Below, in pieces: positions 2,692 through 64,000 of a DNA stretch of 64,000 bases. Source of the DNA: Anaeromonas frigoriresistens. Its GTDB lineage: Bacteria > Bacillota > Clostridia > Tissierellales > SIT17. Under the pieces are notes generated by a model. That model saw only the letters and a list, made by a program, of their open reading frames with translations, was not told the DNA's origin and did no database searches. The translations under genes and the position numbers were made by a program. Positions within the stretch are counted from its first letter, which is position 1. Every line of letters begins with the position of its first letter. The stretch spans positions 434,001-498,000 of the forward strand of contig NZ_WSFT01000053.1 of the NCBI RefSeq assembly GCF_016820655.1, written 5' to 3'.

Positions 2692-2786
2692 GATTCAGTC
2701 AAAGTTATTTTTATTACATTTTGTTTAGAATATAGTGTACAAAAAGTTCAATACTCCTAGTTATTATTAATTAATAATTATCCTTG

Positions 2787-2830
2787 TATATAATAAAGGA
2801 TGAGCATTAATGCTCATCCTTTATTATATA
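2787..2830 (-). terminator. 44-bp perfect palindrome, terminator of the GT2 gene
   Basis: Every base from 2787 to 2808 pairs with 2809-2830; the GC-rich core is GGATGAGCAT. It begins 5 bases after the glycosyltransferase stop codon. The flanks are A on one side and T on the other, so it could terminate in both directions. Confidence 0.8.
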
Positions 2831-2834
2831 CAAT

Positions 2835-3545
2835 TTAAAAATTAATATATTCTTTAAAATCCTCATATTTCCCTATTATTTTACATAATTTTATATAATA
2901 TTCATTGTCTATCTTCCAAGTATGGTCGTTTTTAAATGTATGTCTTATATATACAAAATCCTCCTTATCTGACGAATATATTGGTATTTTATTCTTTATA
3001 CAATCCTTGCAAAATTGAACATCTTCACCTAATGATTTATCGACAAATCTAACAATATCAAATACACTCTTCTTAAATATTAATGTAGGTCCTTCTACCC
3101 TTCTTACAAAAGTATTTTCTCTATTCACATTCCTAAGTGCTAATATCTTAGCATCTTCAAAATAAACATAATTTGTGGATTTACCAATAACTAATGTATC
3201 TTTTTTCTTCATAGTATTTATAGAGTTCATTAAATAATTCATGCCATAGTAATCATCATCATCAAATTTTGCAATGATATTGTAATTACTTTTTTCTACT
3301 GCAAAATTTAAACATTTACCTAATGATATTTTCTCATCTAATACATATATATAAATATTTTCATGATTTTTGAACTTATTTATATACATTTCTTTTCCAA
3401 TATGATTATTATTTATAACAATTATTAACTCTTTGTTTTCATATCTTTGAGTTGTATAGTTACTAAATATATTATCTAACATTCTTCCTTTGTTGGTGAT
3501 AGTAATAACAGATACTCCATCCATTGAGACCTTATTAGTTTCCAT
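2835..3545 (-). CDS. Family 2 glycosyltransferase (GT-A fold), possibly spore-surface
   Basis: 236 aa, soluble, with no membrane segment. The N-terminus VSVITITNKGRMLDNIFSNY and the DDDD run at residues 95-98 (AKFDDDDYYG) are the nucleotide-sugar and metal-binding features of GT-A family 2 glycosyltransferases. LGEDVQF near residue 173 resembles the acceptor/catalytic-base ED motif. Donor and acceptor cannot be told from sequence. Upstream, CATAAACT (3572-3579) matches the -10 form CATANNNT used by mother-cell sigma factors, though the -35 is poor. With the unusual proteins at 3.7-6.1 kb it may modify a spore-surface component; that is inference. Confidence 0.75.
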   Translation of the reverse strand: METNKVSMDGVSVITITNKGRMLDNIFSNYTTQRYENKELIIVINNNHIGKEMYINKFKNHENIYIYVLDEKISLGKCLNFAVEKSNYNIIAKFDDDDYYGMNYLMNSINTMKKKDTLVIGKSTNYVYFEDAKILALRNVNRENTFVRRVEGPTLIFKKSVFDIVRFVDKSLGEDVQFCKDCIKNKIPIYSSDKEDFVYIRHTFKNDHTWKIDNEYYIKLCKIIGKYEDFKEYINF

Positions 3546-63655: not shown

Positions 63656-63886
63656 ATGAATATTAAAATTTTAGGTCCAGGTTGTAAAAAATGTGAGAAA
63701 CTTTATAATCTTACTAATGAAGTTTTAGATGAACTTGAAAAACAAGCCAACATTACTAAAGTAACAGATTTTAACGATATTGCTTCCTATGGAGTCATGA
63801 AAACTCCAGCTTTAGTAATAGATGAAAACGTTAAATTTTCTGGAAAAGTTCCTTCTAAAAAAGATCTGAAAAAATTATTAAAATAA
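63656..63886 (+). CDS. Small thioredoxin-like redox protein (TM0996/MTH895 type)
   Basis: 76 aa. The active-site CXXC is GPGCKKCEK (C10, C13) after the first strand, and VMKTPALVID contains the conserved cis-proline. This is the thioredoxin_3 (redox-active disulfide protein 2) family. Partners are unknown; members often sit next to permeases or arsenic genes. It lies 13 bases before a second small redox gene with in-frame TGA. Confidence 0.88.
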   Translation: MNIKILGPGCKKCEKLYNLTNEVLDELEKQANITKVTDFNDIASYGVMKTPALVIDENVKFSGKVPSKKDLKKLLK

Positions 63887-63899
63887 AGGAGGTAATATA

Positions 63900-64000
63900 A
63901 TGGATATTAAAATTTATGAAATGGTATGCTGAGGTGGTAGTAAAATTGCGCCCATCGTTGATGAGGCTTTAGAAAAGTTAAATTATGACTTTGATTTTGA
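63900..64000 (+). CDS. Probable thioredoxin-like selenoprotein (partial), TGA read as selenocysteine
   Basis: ATG at 63900 with AGGAGG seven bases before. The frame reads MDIKIYEMVC, then TGA (63930-63932), then GGSKIAPIVDEALEKLNYDF to the window end. Cys10-Sec11 sits where the neighbouring thioredoxin-like protein has its redox cysteine (residue 10). The sequence after TGA is coherent protein with no further stop in the 22 codons visible. A hairpin fitting the bacterial SECIS rules follows the TGA. It continues beyond base 64000. Alternative: a nonsense mutation or sequence error. Confidence 0.65.
63950..63967 (+). promoter_or_regulatory. Bacterial SECIS-like hairpin
   Basis: GCCCATC (63950-63956) pairs with GATG-A-GGC (63960-63967) with one bulged A, closing a GTT triloop whose first base is G. 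The loop starts 24 bases after the TGA, within the 16-37 range of bacterial SECIS elements. Confidence 0.5.

Follow-up and report, generated by a model that had tools for sequence, protein, structure and literature searches.

A predicted thioredoxin-like selenoprotein with selenocysteine inside the Thioredoxin_3 domain in Anaeromonas frigoriresistens and related bacteria

Does the TGA that interrupts a short thioredoxin-like frame at the very end of the 64,000-nucleotide stretch of Anaeromonas frigoriresistens DNA analysed here (the window) terminate translation, or does it specify selenocysteine (Sec)? The original prediction favoured Sec, because the TGA directly follows a Cys codon (C10-U11) and the coding pattern seemed to continue beyond it. 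The gene starts with an ATG at 63900 on the forward strand, and its in-frame TGA (63930-63932) is codon 11, after Cys10. Since the window ends within the gene and holds its 5' part (63900-64000), the contig was extended beyond base 64000: the remaining 136 bases stay open up to a TAG at the window-equivalent positions 64134-64136 (whole gene, L005:5901-6137), as had been supposed. The gene comprises 237 nt including the stop, and with TGA as Sec it translates into 78 amino acids (MDIKIYEMVCUGGSKIAPIVDEALEKLNYDFDFDIISDIQLIAKSGINKPPAITINDKVVVEGYIPTVEELVEKLKEI). An AGGAGG at 63887-63892 (+), within the 13-base gap between the gene and an upstream gene for a CxxC protein, is presumably its ribosome-binding site. 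With TGA treated as a stop, no ORF of at least 60 aa is found at this place on the same strand, so that ordinary gene calling likely misses the gene.

The TGA could instead be a premature stop, which would make the locus a pseudogene or a 10-residue leader peptide followed by the remainder of a decayed thioredoxin gene. TGA is apparently a real, if rare, stop in the window, where it ends 2 of 51 mechanically called ORFs of at least 150 aa. The chance probability of the 67 open codons that follow it, estimated from the window's stop-triplet frequency, is about 0.0085. Re-initiation would not rescue the protein, because the window gene has no in-frame ATG, GTG or TTG between the TGA and codon 59. 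In all 9 pairs tried, the portion beyond the TGA has a dN/dS of 0.13-0.33; this purifying selection indicates that it is translated and useful. Since 18 genes from 16 genomes also have the TGA at this very codon, we regard decay or a leader peptide as extremely improbable.

These 18 homologous genes with TGA at codon 11, the window gene included, are a lower bound (at least 18 genes, at least 16 genomes), as part of the class and phylum matches was translated. Across the order (249 genomes), a search reading through every stop codon yielded 15 genes in 13 genomes, own included, all with an inner TGA and none with TAA or TAG; two of these genomes (G215 and G216) each carry a second tandem copy. 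The class search (391 genomes) added G451 and G570, and a search of genome contigs added one locus in an Acidaminobacter MAG. In the class search 14 of 30 loci were translated, and an inner TGA occurred, among the matches listed, in the window genome, G451, G570 and G232; G232 was rejected, its TGA lying at the end of the match, where it was taken as an ordinary stop, with none inside the shorter match. In the phylum search (398 genomes) 17 of 29 new loci were tried for translation (one of the loci, L090, is without a readable start); among the matches listed, TGA occurred in the window genome, G909, G816, G690 and G232, and the TGAs of G909 (L103) and G816 (L118) are ordinary stops, which removed both as candidates. 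No relative was present among 99 pattern matches in viral contigs. In plasmids there were two matches, at an identity of 30-34%, whose annotations name thioredoxin family and redox-active disulfide proteins.

All 18 genes continue past the TGA, and the window protein shares 36-64% identity with the 15 other Sec rows of our alignment (A3). Sec11 is present in 18/18, preceded by Cys in 14, Gly in two, Phe in one and Ser in one; the four proteins with another residue than Cys before Sec have no Cys at all. Most members have the motif C-U-G-[G/Y/F]-[S/N], while in both tandem copies, and likewise in the G026 and G027 genes, an insert of two residues follows Sec (CUSTSxSK). In L033 and L035 the second, tandem Sec gene lies downstream of the main one and has the insert motif CUSTSMSK. 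The search for Cys homologues at the TGA, which the original prediction had suggested as a check, gave one among the matches read, in G553 (L063), with TGC at the Sec codon (MNIKIFEVVCCKGGKLEN).

A tree of 94 proteins places all 18 Sec proteins, together with the Cys protein of G553, on one side of a branch with 100/99 support and the 75 CxxC paralogues on the other. Because these paralogues were collected by their CxxC motif from loci in hand, the tree shows separation from the gathered CxxC set only; it is based on 79 columns, its inner order is unsure and its bootstrap had not settled. The G553 protein sits on a long branch and joins the Sec protein of L061, from the same bacterial family, with weak support (81/27).

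Sec insertion presupposes a host able to perform it, and the genome check that the original prediction named turned out in its favour: contig C52 carries selA (639.9 bits), selB (364.2), selD (400.7) and tRNA-Sec (72.5), each above its family cut-off, and selD itself has an in-frame TGA (motif SGUAAK). C52 differs from the contig of the window, in an assembly listed as 99.15% complete with 3.57% contamination. Across the order, selA was found in 13/13 genomes with the Sec gene versus 163/249 genomes overall, and it is also present in the three Sec-gene genomes from outside the order (3/3). In G553, the genome with the Cys homologue, no selA match was obtained at E 1e-60, a search in which three other genomes tested alike did match. 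The Sec and Cys forms thus track the presence and absence of selA, with one genome on the Cys side and 16 related genomes on the Sec side, whose counts are not independent; that the Cys version was found only where selA was not also speaks against a premature stop. In the three sister species of the genus selA is likewise present, and their relatives of the Sec gene are all of the CxxC type, so the genus can dispense with the Sec gene. If a suppressor or a changed code instead placed a different residue, for example Trp or Cys, at the TGA, the frame would be just as open, whichever residue stood at position 11. Against such a reading are the complete Sec system and the two long ORFs of the window that TGA still seems to end, and a further argument comes from the RNA.

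A hairpin with a G-first apical loop had been predicted 24 bases downstream of the TGA, and it is present at 63950-63967 on the forward strand (GCCCAUC-GUU-GAUG(A)GGC), its apical loop GUU (63957-63959) starting 24 nt after the TGA with G first. Of 200 shuffles, 3 did as well as its energy of -6.4 kcal/mol; folded without constraint, the 50-nt stretch in the window gene is unremarkable (z = -0.56). We scanned the family for hairpins of the bSECIS type, with a G in the first two loop places, a spacing of 16-37 nt and a stem of 4-16 bp. The scan, which is not the published bSECIS program, bases its score on the hairpin only and tolerates a single bulge or mismatch, and as it seeks only hairpins of this type, energies were compared with controls. 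A G-first hairpin with loop, spacing and stem of this kind follows the TGA in 18/18 genes, with a spacing of 21-30 nt (29-30 where the insert is present). The mean best energy is -6.2 kcal/mol in the 18 genes versus -0.5 in dinucleotide shuffles and -0.55 in the 75 CxxC paralogues scanned from the matching codon; hairpins of -5 kcal/mol or lower occur in 15/18 Sec genes versus 7/75 paralogues (6/75 at a spacing of 20-31 nt). For the three weakest hairpins (L028, L037 and L038), 25-32 of 200 shuffles were as good. The bSECIS check nevertheless fell short in one respect: the published model, according to a figure legend, sets a minimum free energy of -7.5 kcal/mol or lower (PMC13188914, Fig. 2), a value reached by only 5/18 hairpins and missed by that of the window gene.

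Pair counts across the family gave 83.3% paired cells and 8 compensatory cells, versus at most 47.6% and 0-4 in slid controls; as many pairs with both sides changed were seen in 48 of 500 shuffles. RNAalifold predicted no consensus pair on the 18-row family alignment, and we retain the hairpin despite this result because the per-gene scan and the pair counts support it. Rfam, searched with a low threshold, yielded 12 matches, each with less than half its gathering score and none of them credible for the hairpin. The case for a bSECIS-like element is therefore modest for the single window gene and stronger for the family comparison. The same scan found no hairpin in the TGC homologue (L063); with this SECIS-like element accompanying the TGA genes and not found in the TGC homologue, insertion of another amino acid seems hardly credible. 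We return to Sec as the preferred reading. Decoding of the UGA by SelB and tRNA-Sec, aided by the hairpin 24 nt downstream, is strongly supported by the sequence comparisons, and the gene very probably encodes a selenoprotein with Sec at residue 11. Of the outcomes named beforehand as speaking against the prediction (homologues ending at the TGA, missing sel genes, a further stop soon after), none came true.

What kind of protein would this be? The window Sec protein matches PF13192 (Thioredoxin_3) with 46.6 bits, above the gathering cut-off of 24.8, the domain beginning at residue 1, and it matches TIGR00412 with 44.9 bits, below the curated cut-off of 62. One of ten relatives scanned passes that cut-off (L061, 66.1 bits); 10 of the 11 Sec members scored, the window protein included, are thus below it. 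Unlike the 75 paralogues, the window protein has no CxxC, and its Sec stands one place after the first CxxC position. An AlphaFold2 model with Cys for Sec has a mean pLDDT of 94.2 and a pTM of 0.83, and places residue 11 in the loop preceding helix 17-26. The best match among solved structures is MTH895 (1ilo; Foldseek E 1.2e-3, TM 0.71), with none at E 0.001 or better; a sequence profile of alignment A3, which also includes CxxC rows, matches 1ilo at E 1.4e-19.

The upstream gene (63656-63886, +) encodes a 76-aa thioredoxin-like protein with the motif GPGCKKC, in agreement with the expectation of a Cys protein of the same fold. Scores of 107.4 bits for TIGR00412 (cut-off 62) and 103.1 for PF13192 identify it clearly as belonging to the MTH895/ArsE family and place it in one Pfam family with the Sec protein. 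Such a CxxC partner lies directly upstream of the Sec gene in 7/16 loci (own, L028 and L033-L037), and 9/16 have no adjacent Cys partner. The upstream partners form one clade (support 95/95) together with one other row, L090. The idea of a paired Cys/Sec relay is hence borne out in part, as far as the gene pair goes, in 7/16 loci; an exchange of electrons between both proteins would be conjecture.

An ArsP_1 permease gene adjoins the Sec gene or the Cys/Sec pair in 6/16 loci. Five of these permeases (L033-L037; also L123-L126 and L128), encoded upstream of the Cys/Sec pair, have an in-frame TGA of their own at SPF-U-SCST, and the permease of G451 (L136) has Cys at the place of this Sec. In G570 (L062, oriented 1147-1455) a gene that reads as ArsR-like lies directly upstream of the Sec gene. 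Near the Sec gene of L061 (oriented 2783-3094) there is a late-starting frame, peroxiredoxin-like by its sequence, which may be the remainder of a Sec peroxiredoxin. Absence of neighbours is provisional, because about 1.5 kb per side was read in most loci.

These surroundings bear on two readings of the function, which compete over the role of the protein and leave Sec insertion untouched. It could be a general redox protein, a seleno-thioredoxin or -glutaredoxin acting on peroxides or protein disulfides, with the permeases incidental. This fits the 10/16 loci that have no permease within the flank read, and it fits the window genome, where the neighbours of the Sec gene read, from their sequence, as pduL-like and aroA/aroB genes; in G026 the Sec gene also lies between pduL-like and aroB-like genes, without a Cys partner. 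The ArsP_1 permeases in 6/16 loci and the ArsR-like gene in one more argue against a purely general role, as does an MTH895/ArsE relative encoded elsewhere in the window genome. That genome encodes its two ArsP_1 permeases on other contigs (C25 and C38), neither with an in-frame stop; on C25 (L006:6843-8520, -) an ArsR regulator, the permease in its Cys form (CSC motif) and a CxxC MTH895/ArsE protein stand together without a Sec protein. We consider the general redox reading a real possibility that falls somewhat short of even chances. A role of the Sec protein in a redox or metal(loid) relay, in our estimate, could as easily be right as wrong, and its link to permease-mediated export is a tentative proposal.

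By its sequence the protein is a small thioredoxin-fold member of the MTH895/ArsE (Thioredoxin_3) superfamily whose CxxC active site has given way to Sec at residue 11. Under the relay reading, Sec11, the only conserved chalcogen, located in the loop that precedes helix 1, could be a soft nucleophile or a soft ligand. It could form a Se-S link, to the neighbouring Cys10 where this is present and otherwise to a partner thiol; alternatively, it might form a Se-metal(loid) bond. The upstream CxxC protein would reduce the Sec protein or accept its cargo, and in relatives with an ArsP_1-type permease in the operon the Sec protein may serve that permease. These roles of Sec11, of the CxxC partner and of a soft metal(loid) or related cargo are what we infer. 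As four members lack any Cys, a selenenylsulfide between Cys10 and Sec11 of one chain cannot serve the family in general; Sec11 more probably forms a Se-S link to another molecule or ligates directly. For the same reason the usual mechanism, an exchange in which both chalcogens belong to a single chain, is closed to these 4/18 members.

More speculatively, at least five genomes might encode a selenium-dependent transport module, an operon for an ArsP_1-type permease with Sec, a CxxC thioredoxin-like protein and either one or two thioredoxin-like proteins with Sec. The window gene would then represent a soluble Sec carrier, and a soft element would be passed from selenol to selenol and exported. 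We think this unlikely enough to be put forward only as a suggestion. Were it true, the cargo would be a metal(loid), or a selenium or sulfur species, and the members without Cys would show that a lone Sec suffices. Because five relatives link the Sec protein with a Sec permease, the role of selenium in metal(loid) or redox transport becomes testable through three or four small genes.

How does the predicted protein compare with known selenoproteins? A recent review lists 119 selenoprotein families and subfamilies (PMC13188914, 2026), and its Table 1 has no entry with a matching motif and Sec place. Our literature search, beyond whose reach were two papers by Haft on Sec neighbourhoods, returned no account of a CUGG-type Thioredoxin_3 selenoprotein. 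Within the literature searched, the description of the protein as new thus holds for the subfamily; the nearest relatives described so far, in Brachyspira, carry Sec elsewhere. Brachyspira Sec.1 and Sec.2 are thioredoxin-like PF13192 selenoproteins (Santesmasses 2017, PMC5330540), which have in common with the window protein the Pfam family, the small size, an in-frame TGA with a bSECIS and clustering with a Cys homologue, the Brachyspira cluster consisting of one Cys and two Sec genes. According to the published description, their Sec lies in a short N-terminal extension (column 26, with the domain starting at column 53; PMC5330540), and the review table gives their motifs as CxU/UxC (PMC13188914). 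The window protein is set apart from this description in that it has no extension and its Sec is inside the domain (residue 11 of 78).

With MTH895/ArsE (TIGR00412; 1ilo) the family shares fold and length, and TIGR00412 matches 20/20 rows of A3 at E 0.01 or lower; the difference is that Sec replaces the CxxC. SaoT, listed in the review table as a small thioredoxin-like selenoprotein of the Sec-assisted organometallic (SAO) system with a UxxC motif (PMC13188914), resembles what is predicted for the window protein. The window protein, searched up to E 1, has no match to the SaoT model (NF040730, cut-off 65 bits); of the A3 rows 2/20 match it, the best at E 8e-4. For the transporters, Table 1 of the review has an SO_0444 family efflux transporter with UxC (PMC13188914), which the five neighbouring permeases resemble in having U-S-C where related permeases have C-S-C; the one of the five that was scanned scored 95.5 bits for SO_0444 (cut-off 300) and 126.5 for SaoE (cut-off 325). 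Judged by its sequence, the Sec gene thus encodes a new Sec form of a familiar type of small thioredoxin-like protein, and it represents a separate subfamily in which Sec occupies another position of the thioredoxin fold.
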